Assembly (NCBI GenBank): GCA_017435505.1
Contig: JAFSEZ010000004.1
Location: forward strand, 1 to 64,000
Source: Akkermansia sp.
Lineage (GTDB): Bacteria > Verrucomicrobiota > Verrucomicrobiia > Verrucomicrobiales > Akkermansiaceae
Reading direction: 5' to 3'
DNA: 64,000 nucleotides
The position numbers and the translations under genes were made by a program. Positions 42,969 through 61,487 of the stretch are shown one piece after another. The notes beneath the pieces were generated by a model. It was not told the origin of the DNA, did not search any database, and worked only from the letters and a program-made list of their open reading frames with translations. Position 1 is the stretch's first letter, and each line of letters starts with the position of its first letter.

Positions 42969-43013
42969 CAGATAGATACAACCAGTATTTGCCTCCTGGT
43001 GCTGTAGTTGGCT

Positions 43014-43757
43014 TTACAGCTCAGCAGCGGCCGGCTTATCCAAGAAGTACTTGGCATCGGCGTGCTTCTGCAGGTAGGAAGCGGCTACATCAATGGTGAC
43101 GGGGCCGTTGATAGCCTTGTTCACGATGGAAGCTTTCTTCTCGCCCCAAGCCATAAGACGCACCTTCTTAGCACCCATGATGGTGGCTACACCCATGGTG
43201 ATGGCGGTCTTGGGCACGTTGTCGAAACCACCGAAAGCGGGAGCAGCATCGGTCTTGGTGAGGTCATCGAGAGTCACCTGGCGAGTGATGGTGGTGTCAT
43301 CGGAGCCGGGTTCGTTGAAGCCGATGTGACCGGTGCGGCCGATGCCGAGAATCTGGAGATCCAGGCCACCACATGCCTTAATCTTGTCCTCGTATGCCTG
43401 GCAGTGAGCGGGAATCTCCTCGGGAGCGAGGGTGCCGCAGGGCAGGTTGATGTTTTCGGCGGGGATGTCGATGTGGTTGAAGAGGTTGGTGTGCATGAAG
43501 TACCAGTAGGACTCCACGTGCTCGTGAGGGAGCCCGGTGTATTCATCGAGGTTGAACGTGGTGACGTTCTTGAAGGACAGGCCCTCTTCCTTGTGGAGAC
43601 GAATCAGCTCAGCGTAGAAAGGCAGAGGGGTAGCACCCGTGGCCAGACCAAGAACAACGCCCTTGCCCTCAGCGGCACGGCTGCGAATGAGCTCTGCAAC
43701 TTCTGCGGCCAGTTTCTTGGCGGCAGCTTCCTTCGTTTCGAAAACTTCGTATGTCAT
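43014..43757 (-). CDS. nagB: glucosamine-6-phosphate deaminase
   Basis: 247 residues. Converts glucosamine-6-P to fructose-6-P and ammonia, feeding amino sugars from mucin into glycolysis. LGLATGATPLPFY, FNLDEYTGL (catalytic base Asp) and GIGRTGHIGFNEPGSD (catalytic His and Glu). The residue before GHI is Thr, not Asp as in E. coli; I recall the RTGHIGFNEPGS form from Bacteroidetes NagB, so it is probably normal. Divergent from fucO. The PFK product of the operon at 50.5 kb would be the next glycolytic step. Confidence 0.93.
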   Translation of the reverse strand: MTYEVFETKEAAAKKLAAEVAELIRSRAAEGKGVVLGLATGATPLPFYAELIRLHKEEGLSFKNVTTFNLDEYTGLPHEHVESYWYFMHTNLFNHIDIPAENINLPCGTLAPEEIPAHCQAYEDKIKACGGLDLQILGIGRTGHIGFNEPGSDDTTITRQVTLDDLTKTDAAPAFGGFDNVPKTAITMGVATIMGAKKVRLMAWGEKKASIVNKAINGPVTIDVAASYLQKHADAKYFLDKPAAAEL

Positions 43758-50350: not shown

Positions 50351-50390
50351 TGAAGCAATATAGAGAATAAGATTATTTTACAGAAAGACA

Positions 50391-50420
50391 ACAACGGCGG
50401 GAAGCAATTCCCGCCGTTGT
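50391..50420. terminator. hairpin between convergent AEC transporter and pfk operon
   Basis: ACAACGGCGGGAA (50391-50403) pairs perfectly with TTCCCGCCGTTGT (50408-50420). No T-run of note in either direction, but its position suggests a shared terminator. Confidence 0.7.
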
Positions 50421-50455
50421 TGTTCAATGAGATGTGGTAGCTCTACTCTGTGGCT

Positions 50456-51550: not shown

Positions 51551-52507
51551 TTAGTGTGGAAGGATGATAAATTTGTTGTGGTCTTTGAAGTCATTTGTTT
51601 TTTGCCAGTCTTCCCAAGCGCCCCAGCCATCGCGCAGAAGTCCTGCTGCAAGACTGTATCGTTTTTGGGAGGATGGCATGCCCAACACAACGACAAGGAG
51701 GCGCTGTGCATAGGTAGACTGTTTATTCAGGTTCGGATTATAGAGCTTGACGGAGGCTCGCTTGGCGGAGGCAATGAGACATGCCCCGGCTGATTTGGAG
51801 CGAGCCGCCTTAACGCCATCTATGCCGGAGGAAGAAAGCATGCTGTTGGAGTTCGTAATCCGCTGTTGGCGCGTACCGTTGATGGTGGCCACATATGAAC
51901 GCTGGGAGCATATGGATTGGAAGCCGGGATTCTCAATGGCATACATGCCCAAGAGCGCCATGTCGCGAGCACAGGAGTATGAGACAACGGCTCCGTTGTT
52001 GCCCTTGAAGCGTGTGTTGGACATGCCAATGGTGCGAGCCATTTGGTTGAGCTGTGCCAAGAATGCATCATCCGGGTCTGAGGGGCTGATATCGCGCCCG
52101 CAGGCTCTCGCAATTGTGGCAGCGCAGGCGCTATCGTCCCACATGATGGTGGAGTGCAGGGCATCTCGCAGAGAGATGCGATCCCCCGGACGCAGTTTGA
52201 GCAGATTGGTGCGTGGCCATTGGATGACGGTTTCCGGTACTGTCAACATGGTATCCATGTTGACGCGGCGGCTTTTTACCCAGTCCAGCACCATCAATCC
52301 GGTAGCCACATTGGACAACATGCCGATGGGGCGCTTGATGTTTGCGTTGGATGCGTAAAGAATACGCCCGGAGTTCGTTTCCATGGCTACATAGCTGGGC
52401 AGTTCGCGAGATCCCCCGCCGGACATCTCCTCTATGCTTGCGCAGTTGCTCAGCAGCAGGGAGCCTGCTGCCACAACCAGTGCGGATATGGTCGATTTAA
52501 TACTCAT
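51551..52507 (-). CDS. degenerate D-alanyl-D-alanine carboxypeptidase homologue (S11), lipoprotein
   Basis: 318 residues. Signal peptide with lipobox LSNC (lipidated Cys22), then a recognisable S11 penicillin-binding fold: YVAMETNSGRILYASNA, CARDMALLGMYAIENPGF and SSSGIDGVKAARSKSAG align with DacA. All three catalytic motifs are lost: SxxK (SLTK in DacA) reads GMLSN (62-66); SGN in SGNDAC reads WDD in WDDSAC (123-128); KTG reads KAA (233-235). It should bind peptidoglycan or a partner but not hydrolyse D-Ala-D-Ala. Start overlaps the pfk2 stop by 4 bases, so it is coupled to it. Confidence 0.8.
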   Translation of the reverse strand: MSIKSTISALVVAAGSLLLSNCASIEEMSGGGSRELPSYVAMETNSGRILYASNANIKRPIGMLSNVATGLMVLDWVKSRRVNMDTMLTVPETVIQWPRTNLLKLRPGDRISLRDALHSTIMWDDSACAATIARACGRDISPSDPDDAFLAQLNQMARTIGMSNTRFKGNNGAVVSYSCARDMALLGMYAIENPGFQSICSQRSYVATINGTRQQRITNSNSMLSSSGIDGVKAARSKSAGACLIASAKRASVKLYNPNLNKQSTYAQRLLVVVLGMPSSQKRYSLAAGLLRDGWGAWEDWQKTNDFKDHNKFIILPH

Positions 52508-53691
52508 GCTTTTTTCTTGCACGTCTTGCGAGGCATCTTGCTGTCTTGGCTCTCCGGGACGTCGGTTACTTCTGCTTGCTTTTTGTGGCCATACAGTTCT
52601 TCAGGAGGCAAATCACCGAAGATGACACCAAGTTCACGAGCAGTACGCACAATTTGGCTGTCTGCACGCACCATGCGCGGCTCGGCAATAGCTTCCTTGA
52701 TGGGTACATGCCCCACATTGAGCCCATTGAGCACCACAGTCACACCAAAGGTGTTTTGTTCGATGAGCTTGACGGCCTCTACACCGAAACGAATACCCAA
52801 GATGCGGTCGAAAGGACAGGGGCTGCCCCCGCGTTGGGTGTGCCCCAGCACGCAGTAGCGAGCTTCAATGCCCGTTTCTTCTTCCAGATTGTGGGAAATT
52901 TTGTTGCCAATACCACCCAAGCGTTCATCGCCGTTGTCCTTGTTGCGTACGGTGACGAGATTGCCGTTGAGGCGGGAGCCTTCTGCCACAACAACGATGA
53001 TTTCGCGCTGGCCTTGGGCTTTGCGAGCCTTCACGCAGTCAATCACGTTTTGCATATCGAAGGGAATCTCCGGGATGAGCACAACATCTGCTGCGGTGGA
53101 GATGCCACTATGTAGTGCAATCCAGCCGGAGAGGTCGCCCATCACTTCTATGACCATGATGCGTTGGTGGGAGTTTGCCGTGGTGCGAATGCGGTCAATT
53201 GATTCGGTAACAACGGAGACCGCACTTTGGAAACCGAAGGTGAAGTCGGAGGCGGGGCAGAGGTCGTTGTTGATGGTTTTGGGAATGGAAATGACCGGTA
53301 GCCCTTCCTCTGAGAGAAGACTGGCTGTGCGGGCAGAGCCGTTGCCACCGATGACAGCCAGTGCTTGCAAACCAAGTGCGGTAATGGTCTTGCGCGCTTT
53401 ATCCATGACGGCCGGTTCCACGGAGGCGTGTCCCAGCTTGTTGACTCGCACATTGAAATTGCCTGTGTTGGTGGTACCCAAGATGGTGCCACCCTTGGAG
53501 CGAATTTTGTGTGCTTTGATGGGGGTCAGGATTTCGTAGCGGCGTCCACTCACCATGGGGAGTAGGCCTTCAAAGCCGTCATGGAAACCAATCACTCGCC
53601 AGCCGCGGCTGTATGCCGCAGAGACAAAGCCTTCAATGACTGCGTTGATGCCGGGGCAGTCACCACCGGAGTTGAGTATGCCAATAATCAT
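52504..53691 (-). CDS. 6-phosphofructokinase paralogue, predicted inactive
   Basis: 395 residues; aligns end to end with the functional copy at 50456. NSGGDCPG, SHQRIMVIEVMG and TQRGGSPCPFDR are retained, but the Mg-binding Asp of GGDGS is Asn117 (GGNGS) and the catalytic base of TIDND is Asn141 (TINND). A C-terminal basic/acidic extension (about 360-395) ends in RKTCKKKA. It likely binds ligands or forms mixed oligomers with the active PFK, like non-catalytic PFK subunits in other organisms (inference). Follows the AGE epimerase by 32 bases. Confidence 0.85.
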   Translation of the reverse strand: MIIGILNSGGDCPGINAVIEGFVSAAYSRGWRVIGFHDGFEGLLPMVSGRRYEILTPIKAHKIRSKGGTILGTTNTGNFNVRVNKLGHASVEPAVMDKARKTITALGLQALAVIGGNGSARTASLLSEEGLPVISIPKTINNDLCPASDFTFGFQSAVSVVTESIDRIRTTANSHQRIMVIEVMGDLSGWIALHSGISTAADVVLIPEIPFDMQNVIDCVKARKAQGQREIIVVVAEGSRLNGNLVTVRNKDNGDERLGGIGNKISHNLEEETGIEARYCVLGHTQRGGSPCPFDRILGIRFGVEAVKLIEQNTFGVTVVLNGLNVGHVPIKEAIAEPRMVRADSQIVRTARELGVIFGDLPPEELYGHKKQAEVTDVPESQDSKMPRKTCKKKA

Positions 53692-53723: not shown

Positions 53724-54914
53724 TTATTTTGCGGTAGTGGGTGCAGGAATGGCGCCAAAGTAGTGGGCACAGCACCAAAGAGCTCGCGGATGGTGGAAGA
53801 AGGATTTCCACATGGAGCCTTTGAGCCCATTGGTGGTAGAGCCATCCTGATTGCAATAGCCGAACCACTCGCCGTGCTCTTTGTCTTGCAGATGCTCGAA
53901 TGCCCAGTCGTGAATGCGCTGGTGCCATTCGGCGTATTTTGCATCACCTGTCATGACGTAGGCTAAGCAAGTGCCAATGAGTGCTTCATCGTGCGGCCAC
54001 CAGAATTTCATGTTGTGCCAGTATTCCTGCACGGGTTTGTTGTACACGTCAGTATAGTACAGCAGGCCTCCGTACTTTTTGTCCCAGCCTCGGGCGAGTG
54101 CCCAGTCTATCATCTTGCAGCCTATTTCTATCAGCTTTTTATCACCCCCGCGGTAGCGTGCTTCTTCCAGCACGAACCAGCCACCTTCAATGTCGTGACC
54201 GGGGTTGAGAATGCGCTCATCGAAGTGGTCGATGACGGAGCCATCCGGTGCTACGTTTTCCAGTACGGCCTTGATGTCTTCGTGCAGGAAAAGACGTTGC
54301 AAGTCATCTATGCAGCGGTCTATCCAAGCCGTGTAGAAGCCGTCTGCATCTCCGAGATAGCGGCGCAGTTCTTGCGCGGTGACAATCATAATCATGCGAC
54401 ACCCCAAATTTTCGCCGGGACGATTGCCGGTACTCTTGGGGAGCATCTTGCCGGGTGTGAAGAAGATGTCTGCGTAGATGTTGAACCAATGGCGAGCGCG
54501 CTCAGCACTATGCGGGTCGCCGGTGGCACCGTAGTGCGCGGCCCAAGCAATAGCGGCAAAGCATTCGCTGTATGCGTAGCGACGCTTGCGGATGGGGGTG
54601 CCATCGGCCGTCATGTGGAAGTACATTCTCCCATCTGTGGGATCAACGCACTTTTCCTCAAGAAACTTGAGGGCGCTCTCTGCATACTGCATCCATTCCG
54701 GGCGCTTTTCGATGCTGTTGTAGCAGGTGAGGAGCATCCAAGCCATACGGCCTTGTGCCCATACGTTCTTGTCCGTGTCTACCAACGTGCCATCTGCGGC
54801 ACAGCAATGGTAGAGACCCCCGTTCACTGTGTCCAGTGAACGGGGAAACCAGAACGGCTCAACCTCATTGAGCAGCTTGTCTTTGTAAAATTCGCCAAGT
54901 GCTTTGGTGTCCAT
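53724..54914 (-). CDS. N-acylglucosamine 2-epimerase (AGE/RnBP family)
   Basis: 396 residues, (alpha/alpha)6-barrel. Motifs include WAQGRMAWML, YAYSECFAAIAWAAHYGATGD, NPGHDIEGGWFVLEEA and MKFWWPHDEALIGTCLAYVMTGD. It interconverts N-acetylmannosamine and N-acetylglucosamine, the step after NanA in AGE-type sialic-acid catabolism (as described in Bacteroides), making GlcNAc that can be phosphorylated and enter via NagA/NagB. Follows nanA by 21 bases on the same strand. Confidence 0.88.
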   Translation of the reverse strand: MDTKALGEFYKDKLLNEVEPFWFPRSLDTVNGGLYHCCAADGTLVDTDKNVWAQGRMAWMLLTCYNSIEKRPEWMQYAESALKFLEEKCVDPTDGRMYFHMTADGTPIRKRRYAYSECFAAIAWAAHYGATGDPHSAERARHWFNIYADIFFTPGKMLPKSTGNRPGENLGCRMIMIVTAQELRRYLGDADGFYTAWIDRCIDDLQRLFLHEDIKAVLENVAPDGSVIDHFDERILNPGHDIEGGWFVLEEARYRGGDKKLIEIGCKMIDWALARGWDKKYGGLLYYTDVYNKPVQEYWHNMKFWWPHDEALIGTCLAYVMTGDAKYAEWHQRIHDWAFEHLQDKEHGEWFGYCNQDGSTTNGLKGSMWKSFFHHPRALWCCAHYFGAIPAPTTAK

Positions 54915-54935
54915 GAGGAAGCGGGGGTAAATTCT

Positions 54936-55862
54936 TTATTTGTAGATAGCCCAATCGTAGAATCCGATGGCTTTCAGTTCGCTCTTGAGCGCATCCAAAG
55001 TGGCCTTGTCCTGCTTGCCCATGGGCAGACGAGCCGGGCCGAAGTCCACGCCGGTCCATTCGCTCATGAGGTACTTGCAGCAACCCATGTAACCCTTGCC
55101 GGCAATGATGTTAATCATGGTGACGGAAAGTTGCTGCAGGCGACGTGCCTCTGCCAAGTCACCGGCATCTACGGCTTTCATGATGTCATTATACAGCTTG
55201 GGAGCATAGTTGAAAGAGGAACCGACACCGCCTTTGGCACCCGTGGCATAAGCGCCCAAGAACCATTCATCTACGCCCCAGGGAATGTCGTACTTGCCAC
55301 CTTCGTAGTTGAGTGCATCCATATACAGAGCGAGATCCGGGTTCGTGAACTTGACACCCACAAAGTTCGGAATCTTCTTGGCACAAGCCTCAATGACTTT
55401 GCAGGGGTTGAAACCTACGTGAGTCAGCACGGGGATGTCGTAGAAGTAGTAAGGGAGATCCGGAGCACCGGATGCTTCAACGGCCAAGCTGTCCACCAGC
55501 AAATCAATGTTGCCGGGCTTAAAGTAGCAGGGGGCGTTGCTGGCAGTTGCCGTAGCCCCGCATTTAGCCGCATATGCAGCCAATTCGCGTCCGTCGTACA
55601 CGCAGTTGCCACCGGTGTGCACCACAACATCGATGCCATATTTCTTGCCGGCTTCGCCCCATGCGGCCATGTTTTCCTTGCGCTCAGTCAGCTGCATGTG
55701 AGCAGATTCACCTGTGGAGCCGGTGATGAAAACTGACTTGATACCTTGGCTGGCCAAGAATTTCGCCTGAGCATCTACTGCATTGGGGTTGCAGGAGCCA
55801 TCTGCGTTCATGGGAGTGTGCGTTGCGGCACAAAGTCCGTGGATTTTGAATGTTGTTTCCAT
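54936..55862 (-). CDS. nanA: N-acetylneuraminate lyase
   Basis: 308 residues, DHDPS-family TIM barrel. FITGSTGESAHM (substrate carboxylate), YYFYDIPVLTHV (catalytic Tyr) and VGVKFTNPDL (Schiff-base Lys) are diagnostic. Splits sialic acid into pyruvate and N-acetylmannosamine. First gene of the operon nanA-AGE-pfk2-dac-pfk1; its promoter lies at 55896-55924. Confidence 0.93.
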   Translation of the reverse strand: METTFKIHGLCAATHTPMNADGSCNPNAVDAQAKFLASQGIKSVFITGSTGESAHMQLTERKENMAAWGEAGKKYGIDVVVHTGGNCVYDGRELAAYAAKCGATATASNAPCYFKPGNIDLLVDSLAVEASGAPDLPYYFYDIPVLTHVGFNPCKVIEACAKKIPNFVGVKFTNPDLALYMDALNYEGGKYDIPWGVDEWFLGAYATGAKGGVGSSFNYAPKLYNDIMKAVDAGDLAEARRLQQLSVTMINIIAGKGYMGCCKYLMSEWTGVDFGPARLPMGKQDKATLDALKSELKAIGFYDWAIYK

Positions 55863-58988: not shown

Positions 58989-61487
58989 ATGCAAGAAACA
59001 CCCTACATATCCGGCTTTACTGCGGGTGAGCTCAGCCCTTGGCTGACTACTCGTTTCGATTTACAGGCATACCAGCGCGGAGCGCAACGTATTGAAAATT
59101 TTTGGGTGCAACCCTACGGCGGTCTGCAAAGGCGCAACGGCACGGAGTATGTGGACGAAGTGATGCCTTTGCTGGGGGCAGATGTTCGGCTTGTGCCTTT
59201 TGTCTTTTCTGAAAGCGAGGCATTGATGCTGCTTTTTTACCCGGGTGGCATGAACGTATACCGAGATGGTGAGCGACTCCGAAAAGACGGGCAAACCTAT
59301 GCACCCAGTATGCCTTGGATAACGGCAGATATGCTCAATACTCTCCGAGTTGTTCAGGTGAATGATGTTGTTTATGTCACATGCGCGCAGCTAGCTCCCA
59401 TCAAGCTGATGCGATACGCAGATGATGATTGGCGATGGGAATACATGGACATGACCCCCTATCCGCGAGAAACATACGTGGCACAGGCGCACGGAATGCA
59501 AGTGCTGATGGAACAGGAGGGGCGGTACGCCCTGTTGAAAACAGAGGCGGGTGCACCTGAATTTACAGAGTCCATGGTCGGAAATGAATATGTGCTGGCG
59601 GAATCTCAAATTCCCTCTCAAACACTCTTCATGAACGAAAAGTTTACCGTTACGCCTGTTTCTTTGCCGGATTTGAGCAAAAATGCCGTAGAGCCCAACG
59701 CTGTATACCAAGTCAAAAATGCCTCTACCGGGCTGTATGATTACTACACGTGCATCCGTGCATACGAGCCCGACTCGTACAATGGTAGTAATTCCCCTGC
59801 GGATTATCCCAACTATTTTATTGCCGGAGTGATGCGTTTGGATGAGTCGGGTTTGCCGTACGAGGTGAATGGCGATTGGGAACTCAAAACACATGGGGAG
59901 TGGAACGGGCTGTGGGAATTGTGGCGCAGTTACGATACGACCGATGTGGAGCCTGATTTTAAGTGCTGGAGTTGGACTCGTATCAAAACATTCGGTCAAA
60001 ATGAGTATTCCGAACGACAAAACTGGGCTTTATCCGGCTCGGAAGACACACCTTGTCGCATGGTGCTCGTGTGCAAGTCTTCGTCTTCGTCACAAATGGG
60101 AGCTTATATGTATTTTCGCATTCTTGGGGCGAATCGAGAGTACAAAATGCGTATTGTGCGCTTTGATTCGCCACGCAGGGTTCGAGCCCAGGTGCTCACC
60201 ACCCACTTGGGGCCTAGTAAGAGTTTTTACACGCGGCGTTGGAGCTTCGGCGCATTTGGTTCGCGCAATGGCTTTCCTCGCTTTGTGGCATTTTATCAAG
60301 GTCGCTTGTGGTTTGGCGGGACACAGGGACTGCCCACCACCTTGTTTGCCAGTAGCGTCAATGATTACGAGAACTTTCAGGTGGATTCATCAGACGATTC
60401 GGCATTGCACCTCACCTTAGCCTGCGATGACCAAAGCAGTATTTGCTGGATTTGTGCCTCACGTAGTTTGCTGTTGGGGACAACGGAAGGTGAATGGGTG
60501 CTGAGTTCTCCGGAGGGACAGGCTATTACTGCATCCAATGCGGCATTTACCCGCCAATCTTCAGTAGGAAGTGAGGATGCACCCGCCATCGGCATGGAAA
60601 ATACAGTATTCTTCATCCAACGTGGTGGGCGGCGCTTGCGCGAAATTTCCTACAAGTTGGAGGCAGATGGCTATACCTCTACCGATGTAAGCCTGCTGGC
60701 AGAGCATTTGTTTGCTGCCGGTGTGAAAGAATGGATGGTGCAGCGGGGCACTACTCCGCGCCTGTGGGTGCTGATGAATGATGGAAGTTTTGCGGTGCTC
60801 ACGACCAATGTCGAACAGCAGGTGACAGCCTGGCAGCGTGTGTCCGTCCCCGGACGCAAAGGTGTGCGCATGGCTTCTCTTGTGCAGCCTGATTCGCATG
60901 ATGATGAGGTGTGGCTCGTGTTGCAGAACAAAGCTAACGGCAGCTTATCTGTTGAGCGCATTCGTGATGTGTCCGACGCTCCATGCGTGGATAGTTGTAT
61001 TAAGGTTCCCGTTTACAGGCCGGATGTCGTTTATCCGGGGGCTCATTTGCAAGGGGTAACGTGCCTTGTTTATCCGGATGGGAAAATAGAGGAGGCGGTG
61101 GAATCCGTGTGCGATGAAACGGGCGCTTGCTCCATACCCGGAGCCGTGCCGGGCGAGTCTTACTGTGTAGGAGCTGCTTTTGATTCGTTGCTGCAAACAA
61201 TGCCGTTGGAAAGTGAACTCAGTTTTAATTCAGTGCGCCAAATCGGACGCGTGAAATTGAGGTTGCTCCAAAGCGATCCTCATTTCTCTTATCGCGCAGA
61301 CCATTCCGATCGGTGGGAAACCTATGACCCGGAGCGCGAACTCTTTAGCTATCCCTATACGGGTGCCATTCACCTATCTCACATTCCGTCACCGGGAGAA
61401 GGCCAAGGCTTTTGCCTGCGTGTGCGCACGGCAAAAGAATTCCGGCTCCTCTCTCTCACGGCCGAGGTCGATTACCACGGGAAATAA
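58989..61487 (+). CDS. phage tail-like structural protein, isolated
   Basis: 832 residues. N-terminal ISGFTAGELSPW...RFDLQAYQRGAQRIENF is the hallmark of a family of phage tail/stabilisation proteins in podovirus-like prophages; later FYQGRLWFGGTQGLPTTLFAS and LLLGTTEGEWVLSS match the same family's beta-propeller-like body. No signal peptide. It is full-length and has no phage neighbours: bactofilin ends before it and a convergent nuclease follows 9 bases after. Codon use looks like the host's. It may be a domesticated or stand-alone phage-derived gene. Confidence 0.7.
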   Translation: MQETPYISGFTAGELSPWLTTRFDLQAYQRGAQRIENFWVQPYGGLQRRNGTEYVDEVMPLLGADVRLVPFVFSESEALMLLFYPGGMNVYRDGERLRKDGQTYAPSMPWITADMLNTLRVVQVNDVVYVTCAQLAPIKLMRYADDDWRWEYMDMTPYPRETYVAQAHGMQVLMEQEGRYALLKTEAGAPEFTESMVGNEYVLAESQIPSQTLFMNEKFTVTPVSLPDLSKNAVEPNAVYQVKNASTGLYDYYTCIRAYEPDSYNGSNSPADYPNYFIAGVMRLDESGLPYEVNGDWELKTHGEWNGLWELWRSYDTTDVEPDFKCWSWTRIKTFGQNEYSERQNWALSGSEDTPCRMVLVCKSSSSSQMGAYMYFRILGANREYKMRIVRFDSPRRVRAQVLTTHLGPSKSFYTRRWSFGAFGSRNGFPRFVAFYQGRLWFGGTQGLPTTLFASSVNDYENFQVDSSDDSALHLTLACDDQSSICWICASRSLLLGTTEGEWVLSSPEGQAITASNAAFTRQSSVGSEDAPAIGMENTVFFIQRGGRRLREISYKLEADGYTSTDVSLLAEHLFAAGVKEWMVQRGTTPRLWVLMNDGSFAVLTTNVEQQVTAWQRVSVPGRKGVRMASLVQPDSHDDEVWLVLQNKANGSLSVERIRDVSDAPCVDSCIKVPVYRPDVVYPGAHLQGVTCLVYPDGKIEEAVESVCDETGACSIPGAVPGESYCVGAAFDSLLQTMPLESELSFNSVRQIGRVKLRLLQSDPHFSYRADHSDRWETYDPERELFSYPYTGAIHLSHIPSPGEGQGFCLRVRTAKEFRLLSLTAEVDYHGK

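Follow-up and report, generated by a model that had tools for sequence, protein, structure and literature searches.

A predicted phosphofructokinase pseudoenzyme, maintained beside an intact paralogue in Akkermansia and most likely its partner subunit

Two phosphofructokinase (PFK) genes are encoded close together on the minus strand of an Akkermansia sp. MAG, within the 64,000 nucleotides analysed here (contig JAFSEZ010000004.1, positions 1 to 64,000; the window). P2 (50456..51544) encodes an intact PFK-A paralogue of 362 aa with the motifs GGDGS and PKTIDND. P1 (52504..53691) encodes a protein of 395 aa from the same family in which these motifs read GGNGS and PKTINND, residues 117 and 141 being Asn. 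The question raised by the locus is what a PFK changed at these positions does beside one that is not. The catalytic losses, the retained residues, the selection acting on P1 and its conserved operon can all be seen directly in the sequences. Together they point to a maintained pseudoenzyme with an F6P pocket, one that most likely serves P2 as a regulatory or structural subunit, a statement that is made, as a whole, with moderate confidence.

Gene order at the locus

The order on the minus strand is a nanA-like lyase, an epimerase, P1, an S11 peptidase and P2, followed by a terminator-like hairpin. The lyase is a DHDPS/NanA-like N-acetylneuraminate lyase candidate (54936..55862) and the epimerase is of the N-acylglucosamine 2-epimerase family (AGE; GlcNAc/ManNAc epimerase-like; 53724..54914). 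Between P1 and P2 is an S11-family D-Ala-D-Ala carboxypeptidase (51551..52507; the mechanical open reading frame starts at the GTG at 52522), the ATG of which overlaps the P1 stop codon as ATGA. This 4 bp overlap of P1 and S11 is found in 38 of the 55 relatives checked. Directly 3' of P2, on the same strand, is an intrinsic-terminator-like hairpin with a 16 bp stem (50388..50423), which is probably the end of a five-gene operon. NanA-AGE-P1-S11-P2 is the commonest arrangement, being exact in 58 loci. The P1 loci have either this order or contig-truncated forms of it, and nearly all of the genomes with P1 have a P2 match next to it.

NagB, the product of which is F6P, is encoded on the minus strand 7 kb away (43011..43742) and NagA is encoded on contig C3 (C3:47069-48193). 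With both in the genome, it is predicted that sialic acid and GlcNAc can feed F6P. Since sialic-acid use ends in F6P, it would make sense for a nan operon to include a sensor of F6P. However, the nan genes also adjoin S11-P2 in genomes without P1, therefore the tie of P1 to sialic-acid use, for which the preliminary description considered a ligand sensor and which comes from gene neighbourhood, is only suggestive. The species distances of NanA and the epimerase (window 53724-55862) covary, with a partial r of 0.76, and the value for the epimerase and P1 is -0.21, hinting that the nan genes differ partly in history from the PFK genes, through recombination or transfer. Elsewhere in the window, right after pyrH-frr-bactofilin, a plus-strand gene (58989-61487) encodes a phage-structural-like protein of 832 aa starting MQETPYISGFTAGELSPWLTTRFDLQAYQRG; this region is a possible prophage edge.

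Catalytic residues lost from P1

Both genes encode full-length PFK-A proteins, which are 54% identical to each other. PF00365 matches P1 at 6.9e-95 and 318 bits (cut-off 30.9) and P2 at 322 bits. AlphaFold models P1 confidently as a PFK (mean pLDDT 87.8, pTM 0.83), and the best PDB match of this model is the bacterial PFK 3pfk (E 7e-32, TMt 0.93).

Residues were numbered against E. coli PfkA, the sequence of which was confirmed to be identical to PDB 1pfk_A, and were counted in 57 distinct P1, 55 P2, 12 single-copy Akkermansia PFKs and 28 outgroup PFKs. In the alignment, P1 residues N117, N141, D143 and D186 correspond to D103, D127, D129 and R171. This confirms the claim of a preliminary description of the locus that both key Asp residues of P2 are Asn in P1. 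The further expectation that the Asn pair would be conserved in orthologues holds for the second position and not for the first. The general base D127 (N141, codon 53269..53271, minus strand) is Asn in 57/57 P1. The Mg-site D103 (N117, codon 53341..53343, minus strand) has been lost in 52/57, with Asn in its place in 32 sequences, Ser in 16 and Gly in 4, and the remaining 5 still have Asp. Two changes go beyond those described before. The transition-state R171 (D186, codon 53134..53136, minus strand) is Asp in 54 and Asn in 3 of the P1 sequences and Arg in 55/55 P2, and an inserted Cys, four residues on from the old base (Cys145, codon 53257..53259, minus strand), is present in 57/57 P1 and absent from the P2, single-copy and outgroup PFKs. 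D129 is retained by P1. D103, D127, D129 and R171 are kept in all 55 P2 and all 12 single-copy Akkermansia PFKs, and the exceptions among the outgroup PFKs are one with Gly at D103 and one with His at R171.

At least three changes have occurred at position 117 within P1, by parsimony on the tree. The base and the Arg were thus lost clade-wide, and loss of the Mg Asp probably came afterwards and more than once.

D127 has been described as essential to catalysis and as highly conserved across PFK-A (PMC11609450). Useful PFK activity in P1 would have to involve another base, and this is judged very improbable. In favour of activity, P1 still has T125, D129, K124, G104 and its F6P site, and five sequences have D103; against this, D127 is conserved throughout the characterised PFK-A enzymes (PMC11609450), R171 has been replaced too, by an acid in 54/57, and the normal residues are supplied next door by P2. 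P1 was also considered as a PPi-dependent PFK and this was rejected, there being no GGDD signature and G104 being present in 57/57.

The third PFK of the genome is of the PPi type (GGND...TIDND) and is on contig C3 (C3:44158-45012), approximately 2 kb from NagA. It has GGND yet keeps TIDND, therefore Asn at the D103 position alone was rejected as proof of inactivity. A PFK-A homologue from another Akkermansiaceae genus (L157, genome G273) is on a very long branch (2.73), with Gly at D103 and the base Asp kept, and is possibly another diverged PFK.

Residues retained by P1

The substrate-binding sequence was described previously as conserved, which is borne out by the F6P contacts R162, M169, E222, R243, H249 and R252 (E. 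coli numbering), each present in 57/57 P1. T125, D129, G104, S105 and K124 are also invariant (57/57). Most of the residues of the E. coli PEP/ADP effector site are missing from both P1 and P2. Two of the six F6P contacts, R162 and R243, act across the subunit interface, as R243 does in bacterial PFK. In bacterial PFK, R162 reaches the F6P of the neighbouring subunit (PMC12203962). The retention of these two residues implies that P1 works as an oligomer through the active-site interface, either with itself or with P2.

At least 98% conservation is seen at 207 of 354 positions in P1 and 241 of 354 in P2. The almost frozen pocket of P1, its own invariant residues (A105, A120, E129, S188, and N84) and the invariant Cys four residues past the old base would fit with P1 being a neofunctionalised enzyme, which carries out a different reaction in the same sugar-phosphate pocket, perhaps with a new role for Cys145 or N141/D143. 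This is thought unlikely. Position 117, beside the old phosphotransfer site, has been free to be Asn, Ser, Gly or Asp, unlike a tuned active site, and it is the phosphoryl-transfer machinery that has been hit, while the F6P contacts have been spared.

Distribution, selection and gene history

P1 is carried by 58 of 76 Akkermansia species genomes, with an open frame in every one. The sources of these assemblies include goat, sheep, cattle, water buffalo, yak, roe deer, horse, rabbit, chicken and others. A sequencing error or strain-specific change, either of which the preliminary description took as grounds for refutation, is ruled out because independent assemblies from several hosts (goat, sheep, cattle, water buffalo, rabbit, horse, and chicken) share P1. 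Outside Akkermansia, the P1 signature PKT[IV]NND had no match among 388 Verrucomicrobiota genomes of 198 genera.

The dN/dS values (Nei-Gojobori) were 0.04-0.16 for P1, 0.03-0.10 for P2, 0.04-0.11 for the epimerase and 0.10-0.36 for S11, with synonymous changes approaching saturation in the distant bins. The range for P1 is similar to those for P2 and the epimerase, and that for S11 is well above it. The loss of three catalytic residues and a long stem branch might be expected of a decaying duplicate with residual drift; however, the low dN/dS of P1, its frozen positions, the open frames in 58/58 and its fixed place in the operon make such decay hardly credible. Given that the base loss is invariant in 57 sequences, that the F6P site is kept, that purifying selection is strong and that the operon position is conserved, P1 is very probably a maintained pseudoenzyme, as had been proposed from the window.

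S11-PFK is an old pair, also present in Chthoniobacter-type and other Akkermansiaceae genomes, and A. glycaniphila-type genomes have NanA-AGE-S11-PFK without P1. P1 is located exactly between AGE and S11. Gene position therefore marks P2 as the copy retained by vertical descent, orthologous and syntenic to the single PFK of other genomes, and P1 as the additional one. In the tree, P1 and P2 are each a clade at 100/100, the P1 stem branch having 1.3 changes per site. The best tree has P1 outside a grouping of the single-copy Akkermansia PFK with P2 (98/87), but the AU test does not reject P1 and P2 as one clade (p = 0.22) or P1 with the single-copy PFK (p = 0.12).

A canonical short PfkA (70-100% identity) was found in 17 of 18 genomes without P1 and in none of the 58 with P1. 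The P1-less genome without it is 76% complete (G024). Short PfkA-type proteins are also present in other Akkermansiaceae genera, which suggests that the canonical PfkA was probably lost in the P1 clade. Phylogenetically the exchange of PfkA for P1 is a single clade event, therefore it counts as one observation. A single-contig 2.7 Mb Akkermansia genome (G005) has the canonical PfkA and a PPi-type PFK, with neither P1 nor a P2-type PFK, unlike the other well-sampled P1-less Akkermansia genomes, which carry a P2-type PFK.

Proposed role of P1

The shared operon, the identity between the proteins, their common fold and the retained interface arginines suggest a possible hetero-oligomer of P1 and P2. 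This agrees with one of the roles put forward in the preliminary description, a regulatory partner of the active PFK, which is the best of the inferences open to the sequence data. In the proposed mechanism, P1 would assemble with its catalytic paralogue into a mixed PFK-type tetramer in which the old active site of P1 is an F6P-family effector site. R162 and R243 of P1 would help to complete the F6P sites of P2, setting its activity, and P1 may be a replacement for the canonical PfkA that is absent from its clade. The P2-P1 pair is of the GGDG/PKT 'mixed' kind of PFK-A and is probably ATP-dependent. There is no obvious loss in P2 itself that would make it depend on P1. Mirror-tree correlations were rejected as evidence of contact between the two, the partial r being higher for P1 and S11 (0.53) than for P1 and P2 (0.40) and therefore not specific to P2.

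Retention of R162 and R243 would be equally expected if P1 formed homo-oligomers only. P1 could then be a stand-alone F6P-binding sensor with a target other than P2, such as another enzyme or amino-sugar gene expression. Its intact F6P site and interface arginines would suit this role, as would nanA and the epimerase upstream, NagB nearby and a C-terminal tail, variable and of low confidence in the model, that P2 does not have. P1 has no extra domain or recognisable DNA-binding part, however, and P2, with which it shares the operon, is also its nearest relative in the genome, so a separate sensor is considered rather unlikely.

The partnership with P2 can be taken further, although tentatively and with some doubt. 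P1-P2 may be a bacterial PFK with separate catalytic and regulatory subunits, a hetero-oligomer in which the dead paralogue provides an F6P-family allosteric site, with an evolutionary origin separate from that of the fused eukaryotic PFK, and taking the place of the canonical PfkA in one clade of Akkermansia. If true, this would bear on glycolytic control in the herbivore and poultry Akkermansia that are without canonical PfkA.

Comparison with known systems

The bacterial ATP-PFKs with solved structures have been described as homotetramers with one effector site for regulation (PMC12203962). P1 is like the PFK-A homotetramers of E. coli and Geobacillus in its fold (TMt 0.93-0.94 across the PFK structures) and in its F6P residues. 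Those enzymes are active, however, and have a PEP/ADP effector site, most residues of which, by comparison with E. coli, P1 and P2 both lack.

The plant PPi-PFK (PFP) has a PPi-dependent partner and longer proteins, and it belongs to another clade than the Akkermansia pair. P1 would resemble its alpha subunit, which is a regulatory paralogue distinct from the catalytic beta subunit (PMC3653104). The AdoMetDC-prozyme of trypanosomes is from an unrelated enzyme family and is a mechanistic analogy only; there, a catalytically dead paralogue activates the live AdoMetDC by complex formation (PMC5201418). The open-access papers searched contained no account of a PFK pseudoenzyme in bacteria or of this Akkermansia gene. 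Regulatory dead PFK paralogues or halves are known from animals, fungi and plants, and what is new is a bacterial one that is unfused and clade-specific.

In animal and fungal PFK-1, the C-terminal half is regulatory and is, like P1, a duplicate of a bacterial-type PFK that differs at D103, D127 and R171 and in which the sugar-phosphate-binding residues persist. In the alignment, the C-terminal half of rabbit muscle PFK has VIGGFEAY, PATVSNN and ETMGGYCG where P1 has VIGGNGSA, PKTINND and EVMGDLSG. The eukaryotic half has lost catalysis and its old active site is the effector site for fructose-2,6-bisphosphate (PMC12203962). P1 differs from it in being a separate, unfused gene of independent origin within Akkermansia and in keeping D129 and the G104/S105 loop. 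No F2,6BP system is known in Akkermansia. If bacteria do have a conserved dead partner subunit, it would amount to an independent repeat of the duplication behind eukaryotic PFK regulation, in this case unfused and with the intermediate losses still visible, the base and the Arg having gone throughout P1 and the Mg Asp apparently later and repeatedly.
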